Assembly: GCA_016936155.1 (NCBI GenBank)
Contig: JAFGPO010000161.1
Location: forward strand, 1-37,578
Direction: 5' to 3'
DNA from: Caldifarciminota bacterium
GTDB taxonomy: Bacteria > Hydrothermota > Tepidihabitantia > SM23-42
DNA: 37,578 bases
The notes beneath the pieces are model-generated. The model searched no databases, had not been told where the DNA came from, and saw only the letters and a list, made by a program, of their open reading frames with translations. Positions 4,451 to 21,173 of the stretch are shown here, in pieces (within the stretch, counting starts at the first letter, position 1; each line of letters starts with the position of its first letter). The position numbers and the translations under genes are program-made.

Positions 4451-4454
4451 TATC

Positions 4455-6212
4455 ATGAAACGACACCACGCACGCGCTATCGCGCAATGCACCCAGCAGA
4501 TACTGCTCATGGGCAACCCGAATGTCGGGAAGAGCGTTATTTTTACACGTTTGACCGGTGTCGGGGTGGTCGCATCGAACTACCCGGGCACGACCGTAGA
4601 ATTCACTGTCGGGATCATGGGATTTGGAGAACACAAAAAGAAGGTCGTTGACGTTCCAGGTACCTATACTCTGGATCCTACCTCGCCAGCGGAAAAGGTT
4701 GCGGTCGATCTCCTTGACAATGCGATCACCAACAAGAACGCGATCGTTATCAATGTCATAGATGCAACGAATTTGGAGCGAAACCTCAACCTTACCCTCC
4801 AATTATTGAAAAAGGATATCCCGGTGATCATCGCACTCAATCTATGGGACGAGACAAAACATACAGGTATCAGTATCGATAGACAGCGACTAGAGGCTCT
4901 GCTCGGGGTCCAGGTGATTCCCACGGTAGCCGTAACCGGCCAGGGGATAAAAACTTTGGTTGAAACGATCGGACACGCCAAAAAAGGGACCATCATGTTC
5001 GACGAAAACGAACGCTGGCACGAGATCGGAAAGATCATCGAGCAGGTCCAGGTGATTGAACACCGGCACCACACCGTGCTCGAGAGACTGGGTGATCTCA
5101 CCATCCACCCGGTTACCGGCATCCCAATCGCGATCGTGACACTTCTGATCATGTTCACAATTATACGGTTCATCGGGGAAAATATCATTCATTACGTCTC
5201 TGATCCGTTGTTCGAAGGTCTGTGGGCGCCCCTGATGATGAAACTATCGAGTCAGCTCGCAAACGCCCCGTTTATACACCACGTGCTTATCGGCCAGTTG
5301 ATCGATGGTCAGATCGATTTTGGACAATCATTCGGCATCCTGACGACCGGTCTCTATGTACCGCTTGGAGCAGTACTCCCCTATATTTTTGCATTCTACC
5401 TTGTCCTGAGTTTCATGGAAGATTCCGGGTATCTCCCCCGTCTTGCCGTACTTCTTGACAAGACGATGCATATCATCGGACTCCATGGCATGGCCATAGT
5501 ACCCATGTTCCTCGCGTGCGGGTGTAATGTCCCGGGTATCCTGGCAACGCGCATCCTCGAGACCAAACGGGAACGATTTATCGCGGCAACGCTCATGTCG
5601 ATATCCATACCATGCATGGCACAAACGGCGATGATATTCGGACTCCTCGGAAAATACGGTCCGCGCGGCCTTTTTCCGGTTTTTATCACGCTCTTTTTCG
5701 TGTGGATCATTGTCGGGAATATCATGCGGTTGCTTGTTAAGGGTGAAAGTCCTGAGATCTTTACGGAGATACCGCAGTATCGTATCCCCCACATGAAGAC
5801 GCTTTTGAAAAAAGTATGGATGCGCATTCATTGGTTCCTGCGCGAAGCCCTGCCCTTTGTTCTAGCGGGTGTCCTCGTTGTTAATTTGTTCTACACATTC
5901 GGTATTATCTCCTTTCTTGGCCGCCTCACCGGTCCGGTGATCCGAGCTCTCCTGGGTTTGCCTCTTGATGCGGTTGGAATTCTCCTGGTCGGTTTTCTGC
6001 GCAAGGATCTTGCAGTTGGCATGCTTGCTCCTCTGGGATTATCAATGAAGCAATTGATCATTGCGAGCGTCGTTCTTACCATGTATTTCCCGTGCGTCGC
6101 AACGTTCACGGTAATCCTTAAAGAACTTGGTATAGCAAATTTGCTCAAAGCCGCCTTGATTATGATCATATCCGCATTTCTGGTCGGTACATTACTTAAT
6201 ATGATACTTTAA
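4455..6212 (+). CDS. feoB: FeoB, ferrous iron transporter with G domain
   Basis: An inner-membrane Fe2+ importer of 585 residues. The N-terminal GTPase domain shows G1 GNPNVGKS (residues 20-27), G2 GTTVEF, G3 DVPG and G4 NLWD. A membrane region follows with two Gate (nucleoside-recognition-like) domains holding the conserved Cys motifs IPCMAQ and YFPCVATF. It is shorter than E. coli FeoB (about 770 residues), mainly in the linker and C-terminal regions. The ORF track starts at 4383 inside feoA. The ATG at 4455 (MKRHHARA) is chosen because it follows the feoA stop by four bases and places G1 at the normal distance from the N terminus. Confidence 0.95.
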   Translation: MKRHHARAIAQCTQQILLMGNPNVGKSVIFTRLTGVGVVASNYPGTTVEFTVGIMGFGEHKKKVVDVPGTYTLDPTSPAEKVAVDLLDNAITNKNAIVINVIDATNLERNLNLTLQLLKKDIPVIIALNLWDETKHTGISIDRQRLEALLGVQVIPTVAVTGQGIKTLVETIGHAKKGTIMFDENERWHEIGKIIEQVQVIEHRHHTVLERLGDLTIHPVTGIPIAIVTLLIMFTIIRFIGENIIHYVSDPLFEGLWAPLMMKLSSQLANAPFIHHVLIGQLIDGQIDFGQSFGILTTGLYVPLGAVLPYIFAFYLVLSFMEDSGYLPRLAVLLDKTMHIIGLHGMAIVPMFLACGCNVPGILATRILETKRERFIAATLMSISIPCMAQTAMIFGLLGKYGPRGLFPVFITLFFVWIIVGNIMRLLVKGESPEIFTEIPQYRIPHMKTLLKKVWMRIHWFLREALPFVLAGVLVVNLFYTFGIISFLGRLTGPVIRALLGLPLDAVGILLVGFLRKDLAVGMLAPLGLSMKQLIIASVVLTMYFPCVATFTVILKELGIANLLKAALIMIISAFLVGTLLNMIL

Positions 6213-6354
6213 CTAATTCCTCTAATCCCCAAGAATACATTCTTTGTAATTTATGCTATTTTCATCTATGTGAATCTTTTGTACCATTATGTAACCACCT
6301 CTATTGACGCGACGCGTCCTCCACCCCGACGCTGTTCCGCGGTTGCTTTACCCC

Positions 6355-6383
6355 TTGACAAAACACTTTTTTTCTATTATAAT
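6355..6383 (+). promoter_or_regulatory. Promoter of perR-like gene
   Basis: TTGACA (6355-6360), a 17-base spacer and TATAAT (6378-6383), all consensus. The first possible ATG (6393) lies only nine bases after the -10 box and there is no ribosome binding site between, so the transcript may be leaderless or nearly so. The 140 bases between feoB and this promoter hold nothing recognisable. Confidence 0.8.
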
Positions 6384-6385
6384 AG
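6374..6385. promoter_or_regulatory. Palindrome over the -10 box, possible PerR operator
   Basis: CTATTATAATAG is a perfect 12-base palindrome overlapping the -10 box of the perR-like gene. It contains TTATAAT, the left half of the Bacillus PerR box (TTATAATnATTATAA), but the canonical right half is not present. It may be an autoregulatory operator; part of its symmetry follows simply from TATAAT being A/T-rich. Confidence 0.4.
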
Positions 6386-6392
6386 TGACACA

Positions 6393-6842
6393 ATGAAAAT
6401 GATTACAAATATGGAAAAATTAAAAACGTTACTCGAGTCCCGGGGGTTGAAACCAACGTTCCAGCGCCTTACGGTCCTTGAATACCTGGAGAAACACGAG
6501 TGCCATCACCCGACCGCAGAAATGATCTACGAAGCCTTGATCGCCAGGATACCGACTATCTCGATCACGACCGTATATAACACGCTGAGCGCATTTCTGG
6601 AAAAAGGGATTATCTCTGCTGAAACCATCACTGGGACAGAGGTCCGCTACGATTTTGCCCCGGTCCCGCATCACCATTTCCTGTGCACCAAATGCGGGAA
6701 GATCTATGATGTGAAAATCAAGTGCCCACTCGGGAATGATATGAAAAATACGATTGACGGACACCATATACATGAGATCCACGGCTATTTCAAAGGTATT
6801 TGCCGTGAGTGTAGCAACAAGAAAAGCGGTAAACAGAAATAA
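6393..6842 (+). CDS. perR: Peroxide-responsive repressor, PerR-like (Fur family)
   Basis: A Fur-family repressor of 149 residues. It carries the residues that define PerR: a His in CHHPTAEMIY (equivalent of H37), Asp in VRYDF (D85), the HHHFLC cluster (H91, H93) and Asp in CGKIYDV (D104). Two Cys pairs (CTKC, CREC) would hold the structural Zn. Metal-catalysed oxidation of the His ligands by H2O2 is the known PerR mechanism. The ORF track starts at 6270, upstream of the promoter, which cannot be right. ATG codons at 6393, 6399 and 6411 are all possible and none has a Shine-Dalgarno sequence. It heads a run of rubrerythrin, flavodiiron and superoxide reductase genes, the classical PerR target set. 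Confidence 0.85.
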   Translation: MKMITNMEKLKTLLESRGLKPTFQRLTVLEYLEKHECHHPTAEMIYEALIARIPTISITTVYNTLSAFLEKGIISAETITGTEVRYDFAPVPHHHFLCTKCGKIYDVKIKCPLGNDMKNTIDGHHIHEIHGYFKGICRECSNKKSGKQK

Positions 6843-6893
6843 GCACAGTCATGTCTTACTGACAGGGCCGTATCGAGGATTAAGGAGGAATGC

Positions 6894-7118
6894 ATGAAGG
6901 ATAAAGTGATCGAAGTACTCAATGAAGTAAGACCTGGTCTACAGGCGGATGGCGGTGATGTAGAATTGATCGAAGTCACCGACGACGGGATCGTGCGCGT
7001 TAAACTGACCGGCGCGTGTGCTGGTTGTCCATTGAGCACGCTCACGTTACGCATGGCGATCGAGAAGAAGCTCAAAGAACGCATCCCCGAAGTCAAAGAG
7101 GTGGAACAGGTATTTTAA
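6894..7118 (+). CDS. NifU-like C-terminal domain Fe-S protein
   Basis: A 74-residue stand-alone NifU C-terminal (Nfu) domain. It starts with [24 protein letters not shown] and has the CAGCP motif whose two Cys bridge a [4Fe-4S] cluster between subunits in this family. It probably carries or delivers Fe-S clusters. A strong AAGGAGG site precedes the ATG. It sits 51 bases after perR and 22 bases before rubrerythrin with no visible promoter, so it is probably cotranscribed with them. IscU-type scaffolds are encoded separately at 13173 and 25551. Confidence 0.92.
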
Positions 7119-7140
7119 TCTTCATGAAAAGGAGACAATG

Positions 7141-7716
7141 ATGAAAAGTATCAAAGGAACAAGAACGGAAAAGAATCTTTTAACCGCCTTTGCCGGAGAA
7201 TCGCAGGCACGAAACCGATACACGTACTTTGCAAGCCAGGCGAAAAAGGAAGGATTCGAACAGATTTCAGGGATCTTCACGGAAACCGCGGACAATGAAA
7301 AGGAGCATGCAAAACGGTTCTTCAAATTCCTCGAGGGAGGGGAAGCGCAGGTGAACGCTCCGTTCCCCGCCGGGACCATTGGATCGACTTTAGAAAATCT
7401 CAATGAAGCAGCTGCCGGTGAGAATTACGAACACACGACCATGTACCCTGATTTTGCAAAAGTAGCGAATGAAGAAGGTTTTTCGGAAATCGCAGCGGTC
7501 TTCATGAACGTTGCAGTCGCTGAAAAACAACATGAAAAACGGTATAAAGTATTGGCTGAGAATATCGAAAAAAAGCGCGTGTTCAAACGTTCGCAACCGG
7601 TCAAATGGCGCTGCCGCAACTGCGGATTTATTCATGAAGGCACAGAGCCGCCTGACAAATGTCCAGCATGTGCTCATCCAAAAGCATATTTTGAACTCCT
7701 CGGTGAGAATTGGTGA
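7141..7716 (+). CDS. rbr: Rubrerythrin
   Basis: A classical rubrerythrin of 191 residues that reduces H2O2 to water with electrons from rubredoxin. The ferritin-like domain (about 1-145) has the [15 protein letters not shown] start and ExxH iron ligands ([15 protein letters not shown]). The C-terminal rubredoxin-like domain has CRNCG and [14 protein letters not shown]. The ORF track begins at 7138 with two Met; the second ATG (7141) is six bases from AAGGAG and matches the usual MKS(I/L)KGT N terminus. It precedes rubredoxin by 15 bases. Confidence 0.97.
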
Positions 7717-7731
7717 GGAAAAGGAGTATTT

Positions 7732-7893
7732 ATGGCAACCTATATCTGCACGGTCTGCGGATACATTTATGATCCAGCCCACGGTGATCCGGAAAGCGGT
7801 ATTACCGCAGGGACACCATTTGAACAGATACCTGATGACTGGGTCTGTCCGGTCTGTGGTGCCGGAAAAGACCAGTTCGAAAAGGAGGAATGA
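7732..7893 (+). CDS. Rubredoxin
   Basis: A 53-residue rubredoxin, too short for the ORF track: [20 protein letters not shown] and so on to [15 protein letters not shown]. The four Fe ligands are in CTVCG and CPVCG, and the aromatic core residues and the DDWVCP motif are present. A good AAAGGAG site precedes the ATG. It is the one-electron donor expected for the neighbouring rubrerythrin, flavodiiron protein and desulfoferrodoxin, and it ends three bases before the flavodiiron gene. Confidence 0.97.
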
Positions 7894-7896
7894 TCG

Positions 7897-9084
7897 ATGG
7901 CAGTCCAGAACATAAAACCTGGCGTATACTGTGTCGGTGCCATTGATTGGGATCGCAGGCTGTTCGACGAACTCATCCCCCTCCCTGACGGAACCACGTA
8001 CAATGCCTATATTGTGCAAGGATCGGAAAAAACCGCTCTTATCGATACGGTGGATCCAACCAAAGAACAGGAATTTTTTAATAATCTCACTGCCCTTGAT
8101 ATCGCACGTATCGACTACGTGATCACCAACCACGCAGAACAGGACCACTCGGGGGTGATTCCCAGAGTCCTTGAACGTTACCCGGAAGCAATGGTCGTGA
8201 CCAATGAAAAGTGCAAAACCTTCACCATGGAACACCTGCCAGTGCCCGGGGGCAGATTCAAGGTGGTCAAGGATGGTGACACACTCCCCCTTGGCAACAA
8301 GACGCTCTCCTTCATCATCGCACCATGGGTGCATTGGCCGGAAACGATGCTCACCTATTTAAAAGAGGATAGAATCCTCTTCCCCTGTGACCTCTTTGGC
8401 TCCCATCTTGCATCGAGTGATATTCTCTCCGTCGACGAAGGACATGTGTACCGCGCGGCGAAACGCTACTACGCGGAGATCATGATGCCATTCCGTACCA
8501 TGATAAAGAAGCATATTGCGACACTGCAGAAATACGAGATCGCAATGATCGCACCAAGCCACGGTCCGATCCACGACAATCCTGGATTCATTATCAATGC
8601 ATACCGTGAGTGGATTTCGGATGATGTGAAGAACGAAGTCCTGCTCCCGTATGTTTCTATGCACGGCAGCGTGCACCGTATGGCCGGATATTTTACCGAA
8701 GAACTCATGAAGAGGAATATAAAAGTCCTTCCTTTTAACCTCACGAATACTGATATTGGAGAGCTCGCCATGGCACTGGTCGATGCGGCGACCATTGTCA
8801 TCGGTTCACCCACTGTCCTTACCGGCCCACATCCGGCTGCGGTATATGCAGCCTACCTGACAAATGCCCTGAGACCAAAAACACGGTTCGCCTCGATCAT
8901 CGGTTCTTATGGCTGGGCCGGGAAAATGCCCGAGACACTCCAATCCATGCTTGGCAATCTGAAGGTCGAAGTTCTGGACCCGGTCATCGCGCGCGGCGAT
9001 CCCAAGCCAAATGATTTCAAAAAATTGCAGCGACTCGCCGAAGATATCCTGAAAAAACACCAGGAATCGAAAATAACCACGTAA
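7897..9084 (+). CDS. fprA: Flavodiiron protein (rubredoxin:O2/NO oxidoreductase)
   Basis: A 395-residue cytoplasmic enzyme reducing O2 to water (or NO to N2O). The N-terminal metallo-beta-lactamase-like domain has the diiron ligand set HxExDH (NHAEQDHSG), a His in APWVHWPET, Asp in PCDLFGSH and His in PSHGPI. The C-terminal flavodoxin domain starts near residue 250 (PYVSMHGSVHRMA) and includes GSPTVLTGPHP and GSYGWAG, which contact FMN in the family. The start follows GGAGG, and the ATG lies three bases after the rubredoxin stop. No extra C-terminal rubredoxin or flavin reductase domain is fused, so the separate rubredoxin is the likely donor. Confidence 0.96.
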   Translation: MAVQNIKPGVYCVGAIDWDRRLFDELIPLPDGTTYNAYIVQGSEKTALIDTVDPTKEQEFFNNLTALDIARIDYVITNHAEQDHSGVIPRVLERYPEAMVVTNEKCKTFTMEHLPVPGGRFKVVKDGDTLPLGNKTLSFIIAPWVHWPETMLTYLKEDRILFPCDLFGSHLASSDILSVDEGHVYRAAKRYYAEIMMPFRTMIKKHIATLQKYEIAMIAPSHGPIHDNPGFIINAYREWISDDVKNEVLLPYVSMHGSVHRMAGYFTEELMKRNIKVLPFNLTNTDIGELAMALVDAATIVIGSPTVLTGPHPAAVYAAYLTNALRPKTRFASIIGSYGWAGKMPETLQSMLGNLKVEVLDPVIARGDPKPNDFKKLQRLAEDILKKHQESKITT

Positions 9085-9096
9085 AGGAGGTAACGA

Positions 9097-9573
9097 ATGT
9101 TCAAACCAGCGGAAATAATGCAATTCGCCATCCGTATCGAAGAAAACGGTGAACTTTTTTATACCACCGTCGCACAACAGGTCGCTTCAATGGAAGTGAA
9201 GGAACTCTTCAAGTCATTGGCGAGCGAAGAGGCTAAACACAAAGCAACATATGAAAAACTCCTCTCTACGATCGAAACATATGATCCGCCTGAAATGTAT
9301 CCGGGCGAATACTACGAGTATCTCCGGGCATATGCGGACAATCACATTTTTCCCCTGGGAAAAGTGAAAAAAGAGATCGCAACAATAACCACGGCAGAAG
9401 CAGCGCTCAAATTCGCAATGGCCCGTGAGATCGAATCGATACTCTATTACCAGGAACTAAAAAATATCGTTCCGGAGAACGAAAAAGGCAAGATCGACGC
9501 GATCATTGAAGAAGAACGAAGACACTATGTTAAATTATCCGGATGCAAGGATTCAGTCTGCGTGAACAAGTAA
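9097..9573 (+). CDS. Ferritin-like diiron protein (rubrerythrin family, no rubredoxin domain)
   Basis: A 158-residue four-helix protein with two half-repeats, each giving a Glu and an ExxH pair: IEENGELFY with SEEAKHK, then REIESILYY with EEERRHY. All ligands for a diiron site are present. The C terminus ends GCKDSVCVNK, a Cys pair without a full rubredoxin fold. The likely role is peroxide reduction or iron handling beside the flavodiiron protein, twelve bases downstream of it with AAAGGAGG before the ATG. The exact substrate cannot be told from sequence. Confidence 0.88.
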   Translation: MFKPAEIMQFAIRIEENGELFYTTVAQQVASMEVKELFKSLASEEAKHKATYEKLLSTIETYDPPEMYPGEYYEYLRAYADNHIFPLGKVKKEIATITTAEAALKFAMAREIESILYYQELKNIVPENEKGKIDAIIEEERRHYVKLSGCKDSVCVNK

Positions 9574-9596
9574 TATGCGTGTGAAAGGAGGTCATG

Positions 9597-9974
9597 GTGA
9601 CAAAAAGAATGCAGGTATACAAATGCATGAAATGCGGTAACATCGTGGAAGTCTTGCACGAAGGTGTGGGACAACTCGTATGTTGCGGGGAACCGATGAA
9701 ACTCATGGAAGAAAATACCGTGGATGCAGCGAAAGAAAAACACGTCCCTCTTATCGAACAAAAAGACGGTGTGATCGTAGTAAAGGTAGGGAGCACTGCC
9801 CATCCCATGGAAGAGAAGCATTATATTGAATGGATCGAGATAAGTGATGATGGCAAGGTGTATCGCGCCTTTCTCAGACCGGGCGATGAACCAAAGGCCA
9901 CGTTTACGATAACGGCGAACCCAGTGACCGCGCGTGAATACTGCAATATCCATGGACTCTGGAAAAGTCAATAA
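9597..9974 (+). CDS. dfx: Desulfoferrodoxin (superoxide reductase, class I)
   Basis: It reduces superoxide to H2O2 without making O2. The N-terminal desulforedoxin-like domain (CMKCGN and VCCGEPM) binds a ferric FeCys4 centre. The C-terminal catalytic domain has [18 protein letters not shown] and CNIHGLW, supplying the His4Cys site; the catalytic Lys lies in EKHYIEW/EKHVP context. The ORF track starts at ATG 9594, but that is only two bases from GGAGG. GTG at 9597 is five bases away and gives [10 protein letters not shown], which lines up with known desulfoferrodoxins, so it is preferred. Confidence 0.95.
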
Positions 9975-9986
9975 ACAGGAGAAATC

Positions 9987-10514
9987 ATGGCAGAATTAAA
10001 CAAAGCAATACTCGACGCCATCCGGTATGCGACTCGTATGGAAATACAGGGTAGAAGTTTTTATGAACATGTTGCCGGGGTCACGAAAAGCGATCATGGG
10101 AAAGCAGTATTTAAAAAACTGGCACAAGACGAGAACGGTCATATCGAACAATTCAGCGAGATATTCACATCGGTCCTGGGGAGTGATGAGTGGAAAACCT
10201 ACATTGATAAAGAAGAACTGGAAAAACAAACAGTGCTCGACGAGCTGAAAGCCCGCGTTGAAAAGAGAGGAAAAGAAGAGAAAGCGACTGATCTCGAAGC
10301 CCTTCGTATCGGGCTGGAACTAGAACGGGGCGCGATCGACTACTATACAAAACAGGTCGATACATCGAATGATGTCGTAGTCAAGGACCTTTTCTCCAGG
10401 ATCACAAAAGAAGAGCAGTATCATTACGATCTGCTGCAAGCCCAGTACGATAATATCACGGGTTCAGGATTCTGGTTCGACATGGCCGAATTCAAGATGG
10501 ACGGCAGATTCTGA
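9987..10514 (+). CDS. Ferritin-like diiron protein (rubrerythrin family)
   Basis: 175 residues in two ferritin-like halves. The first has MEIQGRSFYEHV and DENGHIEQF; the second has ELERGAIDYYTK and EEQYHYDLL, so a complete Glu/ExxH diiron set is present. A charged linker rich in Lys and Glu joins the halves (about residues 75-105). The C terminus (SGFWFDMAEFKMDGRF) resembles that of short rubrerythrin-like proteins. It follows desulfoferrodoxin by twelve bases and is the last gene of this run. It is similar in plan to the proteins at 10859 and 19434. Confidence 0.88.
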   Translation: MAELNKAILDAIRYATRMEIQGRSFYEHVAGVTKSDHGKAVFKKLAQDENGHIEQFSEIFTSVLGSDEWKTYIDKEELEKQTVLDELKARVEKRGKEEKATDLEALRIGLELERGAIDYYTKQVDTSNDVVVKDLFSRITKEEQYHYDLLQAQYDNITGSGFWFDMAEFKMDGRF

Positions 10515-10762
10515 TCTGGTACCTGTATGCGCAAATGGACGTAGCGGCTCATGTATATATCTGCGCTCAAGGGACTTTGATCATGGATCCGTTTCAATAG
10601 ATCCCGCATCATCGGACAATTACGTAAGGGCGGTATATACAAAGAAGAACTGCCTACAGCCTTCTGATCGAACAGAAAGGAAATTGTTCCCACCTCCGGT
10701 CCACAAAAGAGTGCACGGTAGGAGATAATGGCTAAACGGTACGCGACCCGATGACGCGCGCT
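10515..10762. other. Intergenic stretch without recognised gene
   Basis: The only stretch over 300 bases without a gene (10515-10858, including the promoter and hairpin listed next). Its first 250 bases hold no convincing ORF, tRNA or obvious rho-independent terminator. The minus-strand ORF of 89 codons overlapping it runs back into the 9987 gene and looks like chance. An untranslated remnant or small RNA cannot be excluded. Confidence 0.5.
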
Positions 10763-10791
10763 TTGTCAAATTACCCTATTGTTTCTATAAA
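10763..10791 (+). promoter_or_regulatory. Promoter of the ferritin-like/Fe-S/CopA operon
   Basis: TTGTCA (10763-10768), a 17-base spacer and TATAAA (10786-10791). It is placed to drive the run of closely packed genes from 10859 to 19347, inside which no other promoter is obvious. Confidence 0.6.
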
Positions 10792-10823
10792 TGACGTATT
10801 GAATAAATCAAACGGCAAATATC

Positions 10824-10842
10824 CTGTCTAAATAGTAGACAG
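10824..10842. repeat. Inverted repeat in the 5' leader (7-5-7)
   Basis: CTGTCTA-aatag-TAGACAG is a perfect seven-base inverted repeat with a five-base loop. It lies about 30 bases after the predicted transcription start and ends three bases before the AAGGAG of the next gene. It could be an RNA hairpin near the ribosome binding site or a DNA operator. It has no T-run, so it is not an ordinary terminator. Confidence 0.55.
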
Positions 10843-10858
10843 AAAAAGGAGAGTGGAT

Positions 10859-11371
10859 ATGGATAAGGAAAATATGCTTGAAGGTCTCAGGACCGCTTTA
10901 CAGACCGAATTGAACGGTATTCAGTTCTACCGGTTAGCCGCGGAGAGGACGAACGATTTGAAAGGCAAAGAGGTATTCTCTCTACTCGCCCGCGATGAGG
11001 AAATACATTTTGAGGAACTCAACCGATGGTATACGGCGATCCTCAACACCACGACGTGGAAACCCTCAATCACATTGACCGAAGCGCGCACGATATTCAA
11101 GGGAGAAAGTCCGATCTTCAGCGCCGAAATAAAGGAACGTATCAAAAAACACCATTTTGAAATGTCCGCGCTCAGTATCGGCGCGCTCCTGGAAGCCGAC
11201 TCTATCGACTTCTATAGAAAAATGAAGGAAGATACCGACGATCCGCAGGCGAAACGCCTTTTCGGAGACCTGCAAAAATGGGAACAGCAGCACCTCGAAG
11301 CGATCACCAAGCAAATGGACGTGCTGAAGGAAGATTATTGGGCGGAACAGCACTTTTCGCCGCTGTTCTGA
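10859..11371 (+). CDS. Ferritin-like diiron protein (rubrerythrin family)
   Basis: A 170-residue ferritin-like protein, first gene of a long operon. Ligand motifs are TELNGIQFYRL and DEEIHFEEL in the first half, EADSIDFYRKM and WEQQHLEAI in the second. The ORF track begins at GTG 10853, one base from AAGGAG; the ATG at 10859 is seven bases away and preferred. Its architecture matches the 9987 and 19434 proteins, suggesting duplication. Heading a TusA-DsrE-IscS-like-IscU run, it may protect or feed iron to cluster assembly, which is inference. Confidence 0.87.
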   Translation: MDKENMLEGLRTALQTELNGIQFYRLAAERTNDLKGKEVFSLLARDEEIHFEELNRWYTAILNTTTWKPSITLTEARTIFKGESPIFSAEIKERIKKHHFEMSALSIGALLEADSIDFYRKMKEDTDDPQAKRLFGDLQKWEQQHLEAITKQMDVLKEDYWAEQHFSPLF

Positions 11372-11384
11372 ACAAGGAGGTTGA

Positions 11385-11624
11385 ATGGCGGAAAAACAAC
11401 CAGTAAAAACGCTCGATTGCGTCGGCTTATACTGTCCTCAACCTCTGTTCCAGACCCGTCAAGGCATCGATTCTGTTGACATCGGAGAGATCCTGGAAGT
11501 GCTGGCAGACGACCCCGCAGCCGAAGAGGATATCAAACGATTCTGCAAAAGGACCGGCCATACCGTAATCAGCATCGAGAATAATAACGGTATTCTGCGG
11601 TTCTTGATCAAACGTAATAAATAA
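11385..11624 (+). CDS. TusA/SirA-family sulfur carrier
   Basis: A 79-residue protein of the TusA fold. The family motif CPxP is present as LYCPQP, following LDCVG; its Cys is the persulfide-carrying residue in characterised TusA proteins. Known roles are sulfur relay for thio-modification of tRNA, molybdenum cofactor or dissimilatory sulfur metabolism. It lies 13 bases after the ferritin-like gene and 11 bases before a DsrE-family gene, a common partner. With an IscS-like protein that probably cannot desulfurate cysteine next door, it may bring sulfur to the scaffold; this is inference. Confidence 0.9.
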   Translation: MAEKQPVKTLDCVGLYCPQPLFQTRQGIDSVDIGEILEVLADDPAAEEDIKRFCKRTGHTVISIENNNGILRFLIKRNK

Positions 11625-11635
11625 AGGAGGCCTTT

Positions 11636-11998
11636 ATGTCTGACCGGAAGAACATACTCTACGTGCAGACCAGTGACGCTCCGGAACGGCAGTACGCACC
11701 CCTGGTCCTCGCTCAATCAGCAAAGGCCATGGATGTCAATGCAAAGGTATATTACCTCGGCACATCCCTGAGAATACTCAAACCAGGAACCGCTGACACG
11801 ATAAAAATGGGCGCGTTCCCGAGTGTGGGCGATATGATAAAAAAAACGCTCGATATGGGCATTGAGATCTACGTATGCGAAGCGTCGAAACAAATGCTGG
11901 GTTGGGACAAGGTCGATCTTATTGACGGTGTCAAGATCGTCGGTGCAGCGACACTCAATGACCTTGCGCTTGACGCCAACGCGACCATGTGGTTTTAG
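11636..11998 (+). CDS. DsrE-family sulfur relay protein
   Basis: 120 residues of the DsrE/DsrF-like fold. It begins KNILYVQTSDAPERQYAPLVLAQSAKAMD and has a single conserved-position Cys in IYVCEASKQMLG, matching the reactive Cys of DsrE/TusD-type proteins. The full relay complex partners (DsrF, DsrH) are not in the window. A strong AAAGGAGG precedes the ATG. It lies between tusA-like and iscS-like genes and probably passes persulfide sulfur between them. Confidence 0.85.
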   Translation: MSDRKNILYVQTSDAPERQYAPLVLAQSAKAMDVNAKVYYLGTSLRILKPGTADTIKMGAFPSVGDMIKKTLDMGIEIYVCEASKQMLGWDKVDLIDGVKIVGAATLNDLALDANATMWF

Positions 11999-12007
11999 GA
12001 CTGCTCA

Positions 12008-13168
12008 ATGAGCGTATATCTTGATTATCAATCGGCAAAACCAATGGATGAGCGGGTTGTTGAGGCAATGAGCCCGTATTTTACACGAGACTTCGGCAAC
12101 GCATCCTCCCTGCACCGTGTTGGCGATACGGCTACGAACGCGCTGGAACGATCCCGGGCAGCGGTCGCACATTTTATCGGTGCGCAGTCCGAGGAGATCA
12201 TCTTTACTTCGGGAGCCACTGAAGCCAACAACCTTGCGCTTATCGGGTTTGCACAGCGCAACAAGCACAAGGGCGACCATATTATCATCAGCGAGACCGA
12301 GCATATCAGCATCCACAATATAGCAAAATTCCTTGAGAAGAACGGTTTCTCCGTAAGCAAGGTCCCGGTTGATCAATATGGAAAGATTGCTACACAGAAG
12401 ATCAAGGACCGTATCAGCGAAAAAACCATACTCATGTCCATAGCGTATGCTAACAACGAGATCGGCACGATCCAGCCGTTGACCGAAATCGCTGAATTGT
12501 GCAAACAACATGATATTGTACTGCATACCGACGCCGTGGCTGCAGAGGGTCTTCTTGCCCTGGATATACAATCCCTGAATGTAGACATGATGTCCCTTTC
12601 ATCGAATGATCTGTATGGGCCCAAAGGAATCGGAGCGCTCTTTGTGAAGGAAGGGATAAAGATCGTACCGCACATGATCGGCGGCGGCCAGGAATTCGGC
12701 CTACGTTCAGGATCAGAGAACATTCCGGGCATCGTAGGAATGGCAAAGGCCGCAGAAATAATGGCACACACCATGCCTGCGGAGATCGAACGATTCACTA
12801 TCTATCGCGACCGTCTTATCAAGGAAATCCTGGCTAACATTCCGAATTCCCATCTTAACGGGCATCCAACCGACCGGCTCGCGAACAATGCCCATTTCAG
12901 ATTTGATGGGATCGAGGGCGAATCACTCCTGCTCGCGCTCAAGGACAAGGAGATCGAAGTATCGACGGGATCAGCATGTTCATCAAAAACACTCGAACCC
13001 TCGCACACCTTGATCGCGCTCGGTCTTTTACATGAAGAAGCGCACGGTTCACTTGAAATCACCGTGGGACGGTTCACGCAAGACGCTGATATCGATAGCG
13101 CGATACAGGCAATACCCAAGGTAGTAAAGCAGCTCAGGGCCCTGTCACCGTTATATAAGGAGGAATAA
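12008..13168 (+). CDS. IscS-like class V aminotransferase-fold protein lacking the PLP lysine
   Basis: A 386-residue IscS/NifS homologue. Family features are TSGATEANNLA, ETEHISIHN, ANNEIGTIQP, HTDAVAAEG, GLRSGSENIPGIVG and the mobile-loop Cys in STGSACSS (Cys324). At the PLP site, the usual S-x-H-K-x-x-G-P-K-G reads SSNDLYGPKG: His is Asn200 and the Schiff-base Lys is Asp201. The nucleotides AAT GAT are unambiguous. This matches Archaeoglobus fulgidus IscS, reported to carry Asp at this position, to lack desulfurase activity, and to offer its Cys as a cluster ligand in complex with IscU. Here IscU follows four bases downstream. A regular cysteine desulfurase role is therefore unlikely. Confidence 0.93.
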   Translation: MSVYLDYQSAKPMDERVVEAMSPYFTRDFGNASSLHRVGDTATNALERSRAAVAHFIGAQSEEIIFTSGATEANNLALIGFAQRNKHKGDHIIISETEHISIHNIAKFLEKNGFSVSKVPVDQYGKIATQKIKDRISEKTILMSIAYANNEIGTIQPLTEIAELCKQHDIVLHTDAVAAEGLLALDIQSLNVDMMSLSSNDLYGPKGIGALFVKEGIKIVPHMIGGGQEFGLRSGSENIPGIVGMAKAAEIMAHTMPAEIERFTIYRDRLIKEILANIPNSHLNGHPTDRLANNAHFRFDGIEGESLLLALKDKEIEVSTGSACSSKTLEPSHTLIALGLLHEEAHGSLEITVGRFTQDADIDSAIQAIPKVVKQLRALSPLYKEE

Positions 13169-13172
13169 GATC

Positions 13173-13949
13173 ATGAAATCAACTTCATATTCAGAAAAAG
13201 TCCTCGATCACTTCCGTAATCCGCGCAATGTCGGAACCCTAAAAGGCGATGATGTCGCGATCGGACGCGTGGGCAATCCAGTTTGCGGCGATCTCATGGA
13301 GTTCTATATTCGGGTAAAGAACAACCGGATAGAGGATATCCGGTTTAAAACATTCGGCTGCGGTTCCGCCATAGCGACGGCAAGCATGATCACAGAACTT
13401 GCAAAAGGCAAGACCCTCGAACAAGCGCTTTCGATAACAAGAAAGGATGTCGCGGACGAACTTGATGGACTCCCCCCCATTAAAATGCATTGCTCGAATC
13501 TTGCTGCTGATGCACTCAAAGATGCGATCCGGAATTTCCAAAACAAAAAGGAGCCAAAGGTCAAGGCAACCGAGAACAGCAAAATATCCGGGAACCCGAT
13601 GCCCAGTGCGGAAAAATTTCTTGGCAAGGGAGTATATCTCGCGATTGAAAACCCATCCCTATTTTCGGGGAAACGCACGCTGGTCGTTGACCGCGGTGAA
13701 GCTTCGATCGATACGGCGATCGCGTTGACCGAACAATCTCCGCGTGTCGTATTTGTCTCAGGCTCAGCGGAAAAAAATATGGCTTCGGGGATCAAGGAAA
13801 AACTGCATGAGGCAGGCGTAAAAATGCTCTATCAATCGGAAATACTTGAAATCATGGGCGTCAGGGAAGTCGAGAAAGTACGAATCCATAATATGGACGA
13901 GGACGAGGAATATGAACTTTTCGTAGATGCGGTTGTCATGCTGCCGTGA
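13173..13949 (+). CDS. IscU-type Fe-S scaffold fused to a degenerate thioredoxin-reductase-like domain
   Basis: 258 residues. The first 120 are an IscU/NifU-N scaffold with all key residues: Cys38 and Asp40 in NPVCGD, Cys63 in FGCGSAIA and Cys107 in KMHCSN. After a Lys-rich linker, residues about 145-258 resemble the NADPH-binding domain of thioredoxin reductases (GKGVYLAIENPSLFSGKRTLVVDRGEASIDTAIALTE, then ILEIMGVREVEKVRI and VDAVVMLP). The redox CxxC is absent and GGGxxA reads DRGEAS, so nucleotide binding and disulfide chemistry are doubtful. The domain may be structural or for docking. Strong AAGGAGG before ATG; operon with the IscS-like gene. Confidence 0.88.
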   Translation: MKSTSYSEKVLDHFRNPRNVGTLKGDDVAIGRVGNPVCGDLMEFYIRVKNNRIEDIRFKTFGCGSAIATASMITELAKGKTLEQALSITRKDVADELDGLPPIKMHCSNLAADALKDAIRNFQNKKEPKVKATENSKISGNPMPSAEKFLGKGVYLAIENPSLFSGKRTLVVDRGEASIDTAIALTEQSPRVVFVSGSAEKNMASGIKEKLHEAGVKMLYQSEILEIMGVREVEKVRIHNMDEDEEYELFVDAVVMLP

Positions 13950-13976: not shown

Positions 13977-16247
13977 ATGAAAAATAACAAAACCGGTCGT
14001 TTTGAGAAAAAAACTATAAAAATCGGCGGTATGACCTGTGCGATGTGTGTGCAGACTATCGAGAAATCCCTGCAAGGTCTTGATGGTGTTAATGATGTAA
14101 GTGTCAATCTTGCGTCTGAAAAGGCCTTCGTGACCTATGATACTGATCGATTGTCATCAAAGGATCTTCAAAAAGCGATAGAAGACGCCGGCTATCAATT
14201 CCTGGGTGAAGGTGAACAATCAGCAGGGCCCGAAGAAGCGGCACGCAAAAAAGATCTTCAACAGAAAAAGCAGCGGTTCATCACCGGTCTCGCATTCGGG
14301 ATCCCTCTTATGATACTCATGTACCTGCCTCTGTCCCTCCCCGGTTTTATGCTCTTCTTACAGTTCATCGTGGTTACGCCCGTATTTCTCTATATCAGTC
14401 TCCCCATATTCACTGCCGCCTACCGGTCACTGCGCCACGCAGTGCTTACCATGGATGTTATGTATTCACTGGGTATGGGAGTTGCGTACACAGCAAGCGT
14501 CCTGGGCACATTCAATATCCTGTTGACCCATGAGTTCATGTTTTATGAAACCGCCCTGATGCTCGCTTCATTTCTCACCCTGGGGAGATATCTTGAAACA
14601 CGCGCGAAGGGACGTACTTCGGCTGCGATAAAGAAGCTGATGAATATCCAGGTCAAAACCGCCCACCGTATCCAGGGTGACCACACAGTTGAAATACCTG
14701 TTGAGATGGTCACCATCGACGATCAACTTCTTGTAAGACCCGGTGAGCGGATTCCGGTCGATGGGAAAGTGCTGGATGGTACGAGCTATGTCAATGAATC
14801 AATGATCACGGGCGAATCACTACCCGTTCTTAAACAACATCATGACCAGGTGATCGGTGGAACGATCAATACCGATGGCATGTTAAAGATCACTGCGGTC
14901 CGAGTCGGGCGCGATACCGTGCTCTCTCAGATAGTCCGTCTGGTTGAATCCGCACAAGGAAGTCGACCGCCGATGCAACGGCTGGCAGATCGTGTCGTCA
15001 CCTACTTTATACCGGTCATCCTGCTGATCGCTGTTCTGACCTTTGCCGGGTGGTTCTGGATCTTCCATTCATCCCTGCTGTTCGCGCTGACCCGGTTGAT
15101 CTCAGTACTTGTCATCGCGTGCCCCTGCGCGCTCGGATTAGCAACACCGACCGCGGTAACGGTAGGGATAGGACGGGCTGCCCAGCTGGGCATCTTAATC
15201 AAACATGGAGAAGGTTTGGAATCACTCGACACGATATCAACCGTGGTTTTTGATAAAACCGGCACGCTCACGCAAGGCATCCCGATCGTCACCAAAATCC
15301 TCTCTGTCCCCCCGTATACAGAAGAAGAACTCCTGACAATCACCGCGAGTATCGAACAGCATTCTCAGCATCCGCTCGCCCGGGCGATCGTCACCCGGTC
15401 ACGGGTTAACCGACCGGGGTTCTATCCAATTACGGATTTTCGCTCATTCGCCGGCAGGGGAATTCAGGCTTCTGTTAATAACGTACCAACAAACATCGGC
15501 AACGAACGCTTCATGGAGGAATTAAAGATCAAAATCCCCTCTCCGATGAAACCAATGATCAACGGCTTAGAGAAACAGGGTGCTTCGTTGGTGTATATAG
15601 CACAACATTTTGAGGTTGTCGGAGTGATCGCTCTGGCGGATCCGATCAAACCGGAATCCCGTGATAGCGTACAGTCATTGCGAAACATGGGATTCAGTGT
15701 GATCATGGTCACGGGAGATCATGAACACACTGCCCAGGCGATCGCGCGCAGTCTCACGATCGACAGAACGATCGCGAATGTCCTCCCGGAGGGCAAGACC
15801 AGAGTAATACGAGAGTTGCAGGCGAAACAGCAAAAAGTTGTCTTTATCGGAGATGGTATTAATGATGCACCCGCACTCGCTCAATCTGATGTCGGCATTA
15901 CCGTTAAAAGTGGAACTGACATCGCGTTCGAAAGCGGTGATATTGTGTTGATGCGCGACACGCTTATGGGTGTACCGGCTGCGATCCAACTGGGGAAAAA
16001 GGTCATGCAACGGATCCGCCAGAATCTCTTTTGGGCGTTTGCGTATAACATTGTGCTCATACCAGTTGCCGCGGGACTCCTCTACCCGGTAACCGGGATC
16101 GCGTTTAAACCAGAATTCGCAGGTTTGGCTATGGCGATGAGTTCGGTTACTGTAGTGACGTTATCCCTTTTGCTGCAACGGTACACTCCGCCTGTTTTAA
16201 AAACACTAATAAAAGGAGCAAAAAATGGCGATCGATCCTATATGTAA
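13977..16247 (+). CDS. copA: Copper-exporting P-type ATPase CopA
   Basis: A 756-residue P1B-type ATPase of the inner membrane exporting Cu+. One N-terminal heavy-metal-associated domain (GMTCAMC), a membrane region with the CPC motif ([13 protein letters not shown]), phosphorylation site DKTGTLT, HP motif (EQHSQHPLA) and hinge [17 protein letters not shown] are all visible. Length and order are typical of CopA. It follows the IscU fusion by 27 bases with a weak ribosome binding site and overlaps the YHS gene by 23 bases. Copper damages exposed Fe-S clusters, which would explain its place among cluster-assembly genes. Confidence 0.95.
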
Positions 16248-16404
16248 AATGATGGTTGATGAAAAATCAGTGCGCTACCGAAGCGAATATAAGGGCACAA
16301 CCTATTATTTTTGTGCCCCCGGATGCAAAAAAATATTCGACGAATCACCTGAAATATACATCGGAGGAGAAAATCGAGGCAATAGTGAAGAGGAACACAA
16401 ATGA
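16225..16404 (+). CDS. YHS-domain protein
   Basis: A 59-residue protein missing from the ORF track: [18 protein letters not shown], then [25 protein letters not shown]. The DPxCKM start and YFCxxGCxxxF are the YHS (TRASH-like) metal-binding pattern. The domain often occurs fused to or beside CopA, where it is thought to bind copper. AAAGGAG precedes the ATG, the gene starts inside the copA 3' end, and its stop overlaps the next ATG (ATGA). Confidence 0.9.
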
Positions 16405-16685
16405 CCACTCAGCATGTCAATGGAGATGATAGAGGGCATATCATGCTCTATGCACTGAGCACCTGCATATGGTGCCGAAAAACCAAACGGCTTCTCAGTG
16501 CGCTCGGTGTCATGTACGATTATATTGATGTTGATCTGCTCGATGAAAAAGAACAGACCCTCGTGAAAAAAGAGATCAAAAAATGGAATCCTCGCATTTC
16601 TTTCCCCACCCTCGTGATCAACGATACATCCTGCGTCATCGGATATGACGAAGCAGAAATCAAGGAGAATTTAGGCAATGGCTGA
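16401..16685 (+). CDS. Glutaredoxin-like protein
   Basis: 94 residues of the thioredoxin fold. The redox site is CIWC ([12 protein letters not shown]), the cis-Pro loop is [10 protein letters not shown], and the GYDEAEI end is typical of glutaredoxins reduced by ferredoxin- or NADPH-dependent thioredoxin reductases. Coupled to the YHS gene (ATGA) and to the FTR-type gene, whose ATG lies eight bases inside its 3' end. The pairing suggests that the FTR-like protein reduces it. Confidence 0.9.
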
Positions 16686-17196
16686 TAATAAGAACAATAT
16701 ACCTCCTGAAAAGGTCGATGCACTCTATCGGAAATTGAACGAGGAGGCACAGGCGTCCGGATACAACCTCAACCCGGACACGGCATTCACGCGGGAACTT
16801 GTCGAAAGCCTGATCGTGAATCAGGCACGATACGGGTACCCGGCATGTCCGTGCCGCCTTGCAGCAGGGGTCAAGGAAAAAGACCTCGACATCATATGCC
16901 CTTGCGACTATCGCGATCCGGATATTGATGAACACGGTACCTGCTACTGCGGCCTGTATGTTTCCAGAGCCGTCGTGCAGGGCGCTAAAACTGCCGGACG
17001 GATACCGGAACGCCGATTGCCGGAAACCGAACGCGCGCGGATGGCGAGACCGCGCACGGGGAACGGAAGACCTGCATTACCCTACCTGGTTTGGCGGTGT
17101 AAGGTATGCGGGTATCTTTGCGCCCGCGCAAAACCGCCTGAAGTATGCCCGATCTGTAAGGCGTCGAAAGAACGGTTTGAGGTGTTCCTGTCGTGA
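16678..17196 (+). CDS. Ferredoxin:thioredoxin reductase catalytic subunit fused to rubredoxin-like domain
   Basis: 172 residues. The N-terminal part (1-105) has the FTR catalytic-chain pattern of three CxC motifs: CPC at 57-59, CPC at 74-76 and CYC at 89-91, giving four ligands for a [4Fe-4S] cluster and the redox-active pair. The C-terminal part has CKVCGY (141-144) and CPICKAS (157-160), a rubredoxin-like site. No variable (alpha) subunit of plant-type FTR is nearby. The enzyme would pass electrons from ferredoxin or rubredoxin to the glutaredoxin encoded just upstream. A Pro/Arg-rich linker joins the domains. Confidence 0.92.
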
Positions 17197-17226
17197 AATC
17201 ATGGTGAAGCACGAGAGCCCGGGTTT

Positions 17227-19347
17227 GTGGTGAAAAAACAAAAGTCCCGCAATCGGTTGAATAAAGAGCACAGTCCGTACTTGCTCCAGCACGCCGGCAA
17301 TCCGGTAGACTGGTATCCCTGGTGCGATGAAGCGTTTGAACGAGCACGGCGCGAACACAAACCGGTTTTTCTGTCGATCGGCTATGCCACCTGCCACTGG
17401 TGCCATGTGATGGCGCGTGAATCCTTCGAAGATACGGAAATCGCGGCTCTCATGAACCGTGCATTCGTATGCGTTAAAGTCGACCGGGAAGAACGACCGG
17501 ACATCGACCATCTTTACATGACACTGTGCCACCTTATGACTGGAACCGGCGGATGGCCCCTCTCTTTGATCCTTACCCCGGACAAAAAACCTTTTTTCGC
17601 CGCAACGTATATTCCCAGAGATACGCGCTACGGCAAAAAGGGATTGATCGACCTCATTGGGGAACTCGAATGTGCATGGCGTGATAAACAGGACACGATA
17701 CACCAGACCACGAATCAGGTGCAGATCGCTCTCGAGCATATCAGTCACGTAAATGGCGACAACGCGTTGTCACAAAATGAGGTCCATGCGCTCTACCACG
17801 ACCTGAAAAAAGGATATGATGAACATCATGGGGGATTCGGAAGTGCACCCAAGTTCCCATCGCCTCATATCTTCATGTTCCTGCTCCGCTACTGGTATGT
17901 ATACGGGGAGGTTCACGCGTTGCGTATGGCCGAGCATACGCTCATGAAGATCCGCGACGGGGGCATCCATGACCACGTGGGAGGAGGATTCCACCGCTAT
18001 GCAACCGACATAGAGTGGCGTGTCCCCCATTTTGAGAAAATTCTCTATGACCAGGCGCTTCTCATGATGGCTTATGCGGAATTGTATCAGGTGACCCGCA
18101 ATGATACTTACCGGCTTGAAGTACTTGGCATTGCCGACTATGTACAGAACGAAATGACCGCACCGGAAGGCGGTTTCGTTTCGGCTGAAGATGCAGAGAG
18201 TGAAGGGGAAGAAGGTCAATTCTATCTCTGGTCGTACGATGAAGTGAAGAAAATTCTGAAGCGCACGGCGCCCGTTTTCTGCAAGGCCTTCGGAGTACTC
18301 CCTGAGGGTAACATAACGGACGAAGCAACACAAAAACCGGTCGGCCGTAATGTTCTTTATCGAATTCGTTCCCAACAAGATCCGCCCCACGGAACCGGTT
18401 CATCCCGGAACATTGATGCGGCGATCGAACGATCCCTTGAAAAACTCAAGCGAGCACGCACGCAACGGGTCCGTCCGGCAAAAGACGATAAGATTCTGAC
18501 CGACTGGAACGGCCTCATGATCGCTGCCCTTGCCCAAGCCGGTCGAATCACTGGTTTTGATAAACTCACCAAAGCGGCATGCCGCGCTGCGGCGTTCATC
18601 GGACAACACTTGCTGCACAAAAACCACCAGCTCGTACATCGTTACTACCAGAATAAGGCAGGCATCACCGCGCACCTTGATGATTATGCATTTTTTATAT
18701 GGGGGCTCATCGAATGCTACCAAACGACCTTTCAATTACCATTCCTTGAGCAAGCACTTACCATGTGTGATACTATGCTCGCTGCATTCTGGGATCCAGG
18801 GCCTCATGGTGGTTTTTTCTTCACCTCAGTTAATAGCGAGCGTCTGCTGATCCGCCAGAAAGTCCAGTACGATAGTGCATTACCATCCGGCAGTTCAGTC
18901 GCGTACTATATTCTCCAGGTCCTCAGTGCAATCACCGGTTCGAACAAGTACCACCGGTATATTGAACAACTGGAACGAACCATGGCGGATCCGATAATAA
19001 AAAATCCTACTGCATATGCCTTTTTCGTCGGTTCCTACCTTCGGAACTACGACACGCCGGCATCGATCACGATCATTGGTGACCCTGATCATGCCTCAAC
19101 GAGTGCTATAGTACGTTCGCTCCAGGATCGATTCCTCCCTTACGCGATATTCCGTTTGAATCCGGCGAATGAAAACGATCCATCTCGCACCAATATACTA
19201 CCTGATTTTGGCGCATCCGTCACGTACCCGGGACATGCGATCGCTCGTGTTTGTACGAATACGTCCTGCTACGAACCGACCGCGGATACTGTGTCCATGC
19301 TCGAACAGCTTCATGCAAGAAAGGTGGTGGTTGATTTTGAGCAGTAA
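17227..19347 (+). CDS. YyaL/SPATA20-family thioredoxin-domain protein (DUF255)
   Basis: 706 residues with the strongly conserved N-terminal thioredoxin-like domain ([46 protein letters not shown]) followed by an (alpha/alpha)-barrel region like six-hairpin glycosidases ([40 protein letters not shown]). The length is normal for the family. The cellular function is not established. Start codons GTG 17227 and GTG 17230 are both possible, with only a weak ribosome binding site. It is the last gene before the next promoter and sits 30 bases after the FTR-rubredoxin gene, in a thiol-redox context. Confidence 0.93.
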
Positions 19348-19365
19348 AATGGATATACTTATAAT
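19337..19365 (+). promoter_or_regulatory. Promoter upstream of ferritin-like gene
   Basis: TTGAGC (19337-19342), a 17-base spacer and TATAAT (19360-19365). The -35 overlaps the end of the YyaL-family gene. The -10 lies inside the palindrome listed next, so binding there would block transcription. A TATAAT at 19370 is a less well placed alternative. Confidence 0.6.
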
Positions 19366-19374
19366 TAATTATAA
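19359..19374. promoter_or_regulatory. Perfect palindrome resembling a PerR box
   Basis: TTATAATTAATTATAA is a perfect 16-base palindrome overlapping the -10 box. The Bacillus PerR box is TTATAATnATTATAA; both seven-base half-sites match exactly, with two bases between them instead of one. It precedes a ferritin-like (rubrerythrin-family) gene, a usual PerR target. A second, weaker inverted repeat (TTTTGT-tttat-ACAAAA, 19375-19391) follows directly. Confidence 0.55.
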
Positions 19375-19433
19375 TTTTGTTTTATACAAAAATCACGAAT
19401 GCACCCAGTCACATGGGAAAAAAGGGGTTAATG

Positions 19434-19904
19434 ATGAAAACAATCAACGAATTACTGCAGGAAGCCTTGCGTGCAGAAAAAAAGGCAAAAGAGTTCTATA
19501 CGAATGCCGCAACCAAGGCGCAGAGCGAAAAAGGGAAAGAATTTTTTACACAACTGGCGGCCTTCGAACAGAACCACTATGATCGCGTCAACATAATCAT
19601 CAAAGCACGCGAGGAAGGAAAGAACGCGCAACCCGGTGCTCCTCAGGATATTCCGATGATCAAACCCGAGATCGAAGGACAGTTCGAACCGAACAAGGAT
19701 GAGATCGTCGATGTCATCAACAAAGCGATCAAGGCGGAAAAAGACGCACAAGATCAATACCGCACGATCGCCGGCATGATGGACGGCGAGGAAGGTAAGA
19801 ATATTTTCACCGATCTCGCAGATGAAGAGACCAAACACCAGCGGATCCTTGAAGATCAATTCTACCATGTGTCGAATAAGGGAACGATCATCTGGGGGGA
19901 ATAA
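19434..19904 (+). CDS. Ferritin-like diiron protein (rubrerythrin family)
   Basis: 156 residues with a complete ferritin-like ligand set: EALRAEKKAKEFY and FEQNHYDRV, then AIKAEKDAQDQY and DEETKHQRIL. No rubredoxin domain. The ORF track starts at 19377; the ATG at 19434 is preferred because it is six bases from an AGGGG site and matches the start of related proteins (MKTINELL). It follows its own promoter with a PerR-box-like palindrome and is seven bases before a nitroreductase. It is the fifth ferritin-like protein in the window. Confidence 0.88.
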   Translation: MKTINELLQEALRAEKKAKEFYTNAATKAQSEKGKEFFTQLAAFEQNHYDRVNIIIKAREEGKNAQPGAPQDIPMIKPEIEGQFEPNKDEIVDVINKAIKAEKDAQDQYRTIAGMMDGEEGKNIFTDLADEETKHQRILEDQFYHVSNKGTIIWGE

Positions 19905-19910
19905 CAGAGC

Positions 19911-20492
19911 ATGAATGTCCATGATGCGATCAGACAACGGCGTGCATATCGTTCTTTAGCACCGGTCGAGATCACCGCAGAACTCATCGATGATCTCGTT
20001 GACAGTGCCCGTTTATTCTGTTCCTGTTTTAATAACCAACCATGGCGTTATGTGTTCGTGTACGACAAGGACGTATTAAAGAATATGCATGAAGCATTGT
20101 CACAGGGCAATGAGTGGGCACGATCCGGGTCGATGATCATTGCCGTACTCAGTAAGCCCGAGCTCGACTGCCAGATACATGACCGGCAGTACTATCAGTT
20201 TGATACCGGCATGGCAACCGCTGCGATGATCCTTCGGGCAACCGAGCTCGGTCTTGTTGCACACCCGATCGCTGGATACAGCCCTAAAAAGGTCCGGGCG
20301 ATCCTGAACATTCCTGACGATATGGCGGTTATCGCGCTCGTGATCGTCGGGAAAAAGGCGGAAACGATGGATCCCATTCTGTCCGAACAACAGATCAAAG
20401 CAGAGAAAGAACGTCCGGCACGCCGGCCGAGCGACCAGATCTCATTTCATAACAAGTACACCGGGCAAAATGTGAACAAGGGAGAAAAATGA
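19911..20492 (+). CDS. Nitroreductase-family flavoprotein
   Basis: 193 residues of the FMN-dependent nitroreductase fold. It starts with VHDAIRQRRAYRSLAPVEI, the FMN-binding RxxR/xSxR-like region, followed by CFNNQPWRYVFV and GMATAAMILRATELGLVAHPIAGY, both typical. The substrate (quinones, nitro compounds or others) cannot be told. Overlap with the next gene is ATGA. In this operon of thiol and oxygen defence it may act as a flavin-based reductase. Confidence 0.9.
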   Translation: MNVHDAIRQRRAYRSLAPVEITAELIDDLVDSARLFCSCFNNQPWRYVFVYDKDVLKNMHEALSQGNEWARSGSMIIAVLSKPELDCQIHDRQYYQFDTGMATAAMILRATELGLVAHPIAGYSPKKVRAILNIPDDMAVIALVIVGKKAETMDPILSEQQIKAEKERPARRPSDQISFHNKYTGQNVNKGEK

Positions 20493-21154: not shown

Positions 21155-21173
21155 CCTATGAAAGGCTTTAACC

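Follow-up and report, generated by a model that had tools for sequence, protein, structure and literature searches.

We analysed a window of 37,578 nucleotides, positions 1 to 37,578 of contig JAFGPO010000161.1 from a Caldifarciminota bacterium (assembly GCA_016936155.1). Four genes in this window form a tight same-strand run: two sulfur carriers, TusA-like and DsrE-like; a relative of the cysteine desulfurase IscS with Asp in place of the lysine that holds pyridoxal phosphate (PLP), hereafter IscS-D; and the scaffold protein IscU, fused to the remnant of a thioredoxin reductase (TrxR). The genes are separated by 11 nucleotides (TusA-DsrE), 9 nucleotides (DsrE-IscS) and 4 nucleotides (IscS-IscU) (Table 1). 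A preliminary description, made from the DNA letters, had put the IscS gene in an operon shared with IscU, TusA and DsrE, which this spacing bears out, and had overlooked the IscU fusion. Cysteine desulfuration is the accepted entry of sulfur into iron-sulfur (Fe-S) clusters in the ISC, NIF and SUF systems. Our results suggest Fe-S assembly without on-the-spot cysteine desulfuration, because the Lys-to-Asp change belongs to a single lineage, sulfur-carrier genes nearly always adjoin it, and IscU is usually fused to a broken reductase.

Table 1. Features of the window, with the four-gene run first
Feature	Position	Strand	Properties and evidence
TusA-like sulfur carrier	11385..11624	+	79 residues; CPxP Cys17 kept; Pfam TusA, E 4.9e-25
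DsrE-like sulfur carrier	11636..11998	+	120 residues; invariant Cys81 (alignment column 83); Pfam DsrE, E 1.5e-13
Asp-type IscS (IscS-D)	12008..13168	+	386 residues; Asp201, Asn200, Ala178, Glu350, new Lys11; Cys324 kept
Asn200-Asp201 codons, replacing His-Lys	12605..12610	+	AAT GAT; Asp201 is GAT at 12608-12610
Cys324 codon, persulfide or cluster-ligand cysteine	12977..12979	+	TGT, in STGSACSS; sequence
IscU (residues 1-126) fused to degenerate TrxR NADPH-type domain (about 143-258)	13173..13949	+	Pfam NifU_N; tail matches TrxR
Oxidative-stress and iron cluster upstream: FeoB-like, Fur-like, rubrerythrin-like, flavodiiron protein, desulfoferrodoxin, further rubrerythrin-like frames	4383..11371	+	
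Downstream genes: HMA-domain P-type ATPase, glutaredoxin, fusion of ferredoxin:thioredoxin reductase beta chain and rubredoxin, nitroreductase, thioredoxin-fold protein, NUBPL/Mrp-type Fe-S carrier ATPase	13977..21980	+	
Second, small IscU-like protein	25551..25979	+	Divergent type; recurs as third IscU in sister genomes

Sequence and relatives of IscS-D

The motif stretch of the IscS open reading frame reads SLSSNDLYGPKG, with SSND at residues 198-201. At least two base changes would be needed to turn the GAT codon of Asp201 into a lysine codon, and the same holds for the relatives. The top PDB match of the protein was Archaeoglobus fulgidus IscS (AfIscS, PDB 4EB5; E 1.5e-129), which also carries SSND. 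Identity was 52% to AfIscS, 46% to an ordinary IscS with the motif SAHK in the same genome, and 43% to E. coli IscS (a sequence in which K206, Q183, H104, C328 and R354 match the published numbering). Scores fell below the NCBIfam equivalog cut-offs for NifS (459.7 of 530.75 bits) and IscS (400 of 643.2), as did those of the SAHK IscS, and the only cut-off passed by IscS-D was that of the looser subfamily NF002806.

We then scanned GTDB contigs and obtained 80 loci, using short peptides of the window protein as seeds, which under-samples distant Asp-type proteins. The pattern S-[SA]-N-[DE] was present in all 52 nearest independent loci (51 Asp, 1 Glu), and S-x-H-K in the next, more distant 28. 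The Glu variant, SSNE, occurs at L046:5971-7191 and is the sole one in the clade. A sequencing error is ruled out as the source of Asp201 by the 52 independent loci that share the trait. Pseudogene decay of the active site is ruled out as well, the position being Asp (once Glu) throughout and the co-varying residues fixed.

In a maximum-likelihood tree built with the trait columns removed, all 54 Asp-type sequences (the window protein and AfIscS included; 53 Asp, 1 Glu) fell on one side of one branch with support 100/98. The bacterial lineages among the 52 loci were WOR-3/Stahlbacteria, Aminicenantes, Syntrophaceae, Actinobacteria, Eisenbacteria and Nitrospinota, and the archaeal lineages were Loki-, Hel-, Thor-, Sigyn-, Frey- and Jordarchaea and Bathyarchaeota. 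The archaeal sequences were interleaved with the bacterial ones, which points to transfer between the domains, and by this pattern the Asp-type module has apparently spread horizontally. These findings confirm the substitution and the motif shared with AfIscS that the preliminary description had reported; its picture of a lone bacterial oddity gives way to a trait characteristic of one clade, whose members come from several phyla of bacteria and archaea.

The active-site pocket

The change at the PLP lysine (E. coli Lys206; Asp in 53 of 54 Asp-type sequences, Glu in the other) removes the Schiff-base lysine of a type I desulfurase. The neighbouring His205 position is Asn (Asn200) in 54/54, and the Gln183 position is Ala (Ala178) in 51/54, so that this part of the type I pocket is also missing. 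Arg354 is present in 36/36 Lys-type sequences versus 0/54 Asp-type ones, which have Glu, Leu or Gln there (Glu350 in the window). The Thr13 position has become Lys11, with Lys in 52/53 Asp-type sequences versus Thr in 34/35 of the Lys type. The persulfide cysteine on the flexible loop, Cys324, is kept in 54/54, as in type I desulfurases and in agreement with the intact sulfur-accepting cysteine described earlier. The PLP-stacking His99, the pyridine-binding Asp175 and Ser198 (Ser203 position) are invariant. Judged from these residues, the Asp-type pocket is rebuilt rather than decayed.

Mutating E. coli IscS to K206A or Q183E abolishes its activity (PMC9978102). For AfIscS, a lack of desulfurase activity has been reported (PMC7585200), as has ligation of the cluster through its Cys (PMC7585200, PMC9769115), and these reports agree with the preliminary description on both points. 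We infer that the window protein is very probably inactive as a desulfurase, because four active-site positions have changed and both its homologue AfIscS and the E. coli mutants are inactive. Absence of the cofactor does not follow, since the Fig. 1 legend of PMC9769115 has 4EB5 drawn with PLP; by this analogy Asp-type IscS may bind PLP.

Conservation of the four-gene module

We next compared the neighbours of IscS across the 80 loci. TusA lay within 3 kb of IscS at 48/52 Asp-type loci versus 0/28 Lys-type loci, and DsrE lay near IscS at 41/52 versus 0/28; the Fisher p value of 1e-17 for this linkage counts related loci as independent and serves as a guide only. The CPxP cysteine was present in 50/50 aligned TusA rows, the window included, and the window protein matches the TusA profile. 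Cys81 was present in 43/43 aligned DsrE rows; the window protein matches the DsrE/TusD family profile and scored below the NCBIfam DsrE2 cut-off. The closed WOR-3-type chromosomes G001, G005 and G006 have one TusA each, which is the module's own.

In E. coli, Trp45 of IscS and Phe58 of TusA form a contact pair (PMC2854127). The corresponding positions are Asp40 in IscS-D (49/53) and Arg56 in TusA (49/49), and this joint change is a suggestive hint of an IscS-TusA contact. As proof of an interface this pair was downgraded, Lys being common at the Arg56 position in other TusAs.

At three Lokiarchaeota loci examined with Pfam, the module is directly succeeded, in the same orientation, by a gene for a reductase-rhodanese-TusA protein (L041:8203-10593, L045:8125-10509, L051:8134-10491). 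This protein is of the sulfane-sulfur kind. New in this work are the rebuilt pocket and the module of four genes that is conserved around it; we found no description of them in the literature searched, a search that left most subscription journals outside.

The IscU fusion and its reductase remnant

The IscU half has the residues of a scaffold: Cys38, Asp40, Cys63 and Cys107 are invariant, and the motif LPPIK of the window is LPPxK across the clade. Its AlphaFold model had two confident domains (mean predicted local distance difference test score 82.9) joined by a floppy linker at residues 127-142, and the predicted template-modelling score of 0.55 leaves their mutual placement uncertain.

A tail of constant length, as in the window, was found in 40 relatives. 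The GxGxxA dinucleotide motif was lost in 38/38 truncated tails, the first Gly being replaced by Asp or Glu in 36/38 and by His in 2/38. With this motif and the flavin (FAD) domain missing, the tail resembles a thioredoxin reductase in fold and sequence similarity only, and NADPH-dependent reductase activity was judged unlikely on these grounds. At two archaeal loci (L055:9851-11194, L056:8235-9578), the fusion partner of IscU is an entire thioredoxin-reductase-like FAD/NAD(P) protein with intact motifs. By comparison of these proteins, the full fusion is the likely ancestor, and the truncated tail would have arisen from it by loss of the FAD domain.

We also considered whether IscU is fused at ordinary IscS loci too. 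There, the long IscU frame examined in Methanomassiliicoccales (L065:7157-8782) proved to be an intein insertion. The intein, which has a LAGLIDADG domain, begins precisely at the cysteine that serves IscU as its first cluster ligand (GNPV|C...HN|CGDL). Similarly long Methanomassiliicoccales IscU frames occur in L063, L071, L077 and L088.

Ordinary Fe-S genes in the same genomes

The window belongs to a 2.49 Mb draft genome that is 86% complete with 6.7% contamination. A search for a normal desulfurase, as the preliminary description had proposed, found the SAHK IscS adjoining mnmA, together with a protein resembling SufS at the end of a contig; SufB/D were not found in this draft. Most sister genomes examined carry SAHK or SGHK IscS copies. 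More than one type-I IscS match was present in 28/32 genomes, and the one copy found in each of three others (G019, G022, G028) reads SSND, while the position of the one copy found in G017 fits the SSND locus L028.

Both IscU-like genes of the window genome lie within the window. The ordinary IscU may be missing only because the draft is incomplete, since all 7 sister genomes with a fused IscU have an ordinary second one. SUF was absent from 9/9 genomes searched of the same family and from 19/20 module-bearing bacterial genomes. Despite the absence of SUF, the module was rejected as the cell's only Fe-S system in this family, given the second IscU in those 7/7 genomes. It is not typical of the phylum either: full-length fused IscU occurred only in the window's own family, in 8/9 genomes, versus 0/91 others.

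Proposed mechanism and alternatives

In the best-supported reading, to which we give even chances, a dead IscS relative acts as hub in a module of four genes (TusA, DsrE, IscS-D and IscU with its TrxR remnant) that is devoted to Fe-S assembly and fed by TusA and DsrE. IscS-D itself would take no sulfur from cysteine. Sulfane sulfur on DsrE and TusA would pass to Cys324 of IscS-D, or directly to bound IscU, which IscS-D would hold in the usual IscS-IscU geometry. Cys324 would be lent as a persulfide or as a cluster ligand during assembly of a [2Fe-2S] cluster on Cys38, Cys63 and Cys107 of IscU, and the former reductase domain would serve docking or dimerisation without any redox role. The flow from TusA to IscS-D, the ligation by Cys324 and the role of the tail are all inferred.

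DsrE can receive sulfur from sulfide or from IscS (PMC3397948), and sulfide, polysulfide or cysteine by way of an ordinary IscS are possible sources here. The preliminary description had proposed sulfur from somewhere other than cysteine; the part of this claim that stands is the probable unfitness of the pocket for desulfuration, whereas another source does not follow, ordinary IscS copies and, in sister genomes, an ordinary second IscU being kept. It is doubtful that this is an additional type of Fe-S machine, shared by bacteria and Asgard archaea, in which sulfide or polysulfide sulfur travels through DsrE and TusA, with the TusA-IscS flow reversed, and never through cysteine, with a dead desulfurase as hub and a fossil reductase for docking.

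Several observations weigh against a TusA- and DsrE-fed hub. The trait occurs without TusA at L030, L034, L037 and L060 (some at contig ends), DsrE was not seen at 11 Asp-type loci, and L037, L039 and L059 have no fused IscU nearby; L039 and L059 retain TusA and DsrE, and L037 is without any partner. Lys is frequent at the Arg56 position in the other TusAs of these genomes. The E. coli system passes sulfur from IscS to TusA, and its IscS does not bind TusA and IscU at once (PMC2854127); the TusA-to-IscS-D step runs in the reverse direction and is conjecture. Because this family also has ordinary IscS and IscU, cluster assembly need not run chiefly through the module.

The E. coli IscS-TusA-TusBCD relay uses the same protein families, with TusA binding IscS near the persulfide Cys (PMC2854127). 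In that relay IscS is an active donor, TusA is the acceptor and the product is thiolated tRNA, whereas the window IscS is presumably unable to donate and its genes sit with IscU. The minimal ISC system (MIS, MisS-MisU) resembles the module by description, being an IscS and IscU pair in an operon without Hsc chaperones or carriers; the window module differs in having lost the desulfurase motif and gained TusA, DsrE and the IscU fusion.

Methanosarcina acetivorans IscS1/IscU1 (MA0808/MA0807), also likened by description, comprises an IscS1 without the catalytic Lys and an unusually large IscU1 of 24.2 kDa, and four uncharacterised genes accompany the two (PMC7585200). TusA, DsrE and a reductase tail go unmentioned in PMC7585200.

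It is unlikely, by our estimate, that the module works as in A. fulgidus, with inorganic sulfide as the source, IscS-D lending only a Cys ligand, and TusA and DsrE serving sulfane detoxification or another acceptor. AfIscS does share the clade and the Ala, Asn, Lys10 and Cys321 residues, and in the reported A. fulgidus structure the IscS Cys is the fourth ligand (PMC9769115). IscU can be fed by sulfide in E. coli lacking IscS (PMC13015791) and in the SMS system (PMC12192291). Such a scheme would not predict tight TusA and DsrE linkage over many phyla, nor a sole TusA belonging to the module in three closed genomes. A. fulgidus IscU also differs, its PDB chain of 138 residues aligning with the IscU half only and having no reductase tail.

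Less probable still is a cysteine-dependent branch in which an ordinary IscS charges TusA, which then supplies IscS-D and IscU, with IscS-D as a mere adaptor. Sulfur from cysteine could reach TusA in this way, because the window genome has the SAHK IscS beside mnmA and most sister genomes examined have SAHK or SGHK copies, and E. coli IscS does charge TusA (PMC2854127). The four archaeal metagenome-assembled genomes in which the one type-I IscS found lies at an Asp-type locus argue against it, although these genomes may be incomplete and could hold type-II enzymes, as does the pairing of the module with the reductase-rhodanese-TusA protein in Lokiarchaeota.

We see only a slim chance that IscS-D and IscU store, repair or sense clusters or persulfides under oxygen stress, with no de novo assembly. 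Relatives of the window's oxygen-defence genes lie near the module at 10/11 WOR-3 loci and 13/41 other loci versus 0/28 Lys-type loci, and the sister genomes have an ordinary IscU besides; the intact IscU ligands, Asp40 and LPPIK, on the other hand, are those of an assembly scaffold.

That IscS-D is still a PLP enzyme, putatively holding the cofactor through another lysine (Lys11 being the best candidate) and acting on a different substrate, is very improbable: the near-invariant, Asp-type-specific Lys11, the invariant His99, Asp175 and Ser198 and the drawing of 4EB5 with PLP would fit, but the Gln183, His205 and Arg354 positions have changed too, and AfIscS, with identical residues, is reported inactive.

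The module joins a kept IscS body and persulfide Cys to a rebuilt active site with ties to TusA and DsrE, which makes an alternative sulfur entry directly testable. It places the puzzling IscS proteins of A. fulgidus, and perhaps of Methanosarcina, in a family, supplies them with a genomic context and candidate partners, and is relevant to cluster-making in anaerobes, Asgard archaea included.

Other features of the window

In the upstream cluster, the flavodiiron protein, the desulfoferrodoxin and two rubrerythrin-like frames were identified with Pfam, and FeoB, Fur and the rubrerythrin at 7138-7716 were named from their sequences only. An Rfam search of the window returned no RNA, and a scan for promoters and terminators gave results at chance level. 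Among the downstream genes, the frame at 16678-17196 joins a rubredoxin domain of the rubrerythrin type to a ferredoxin:thioredoxin reductase beta chain.
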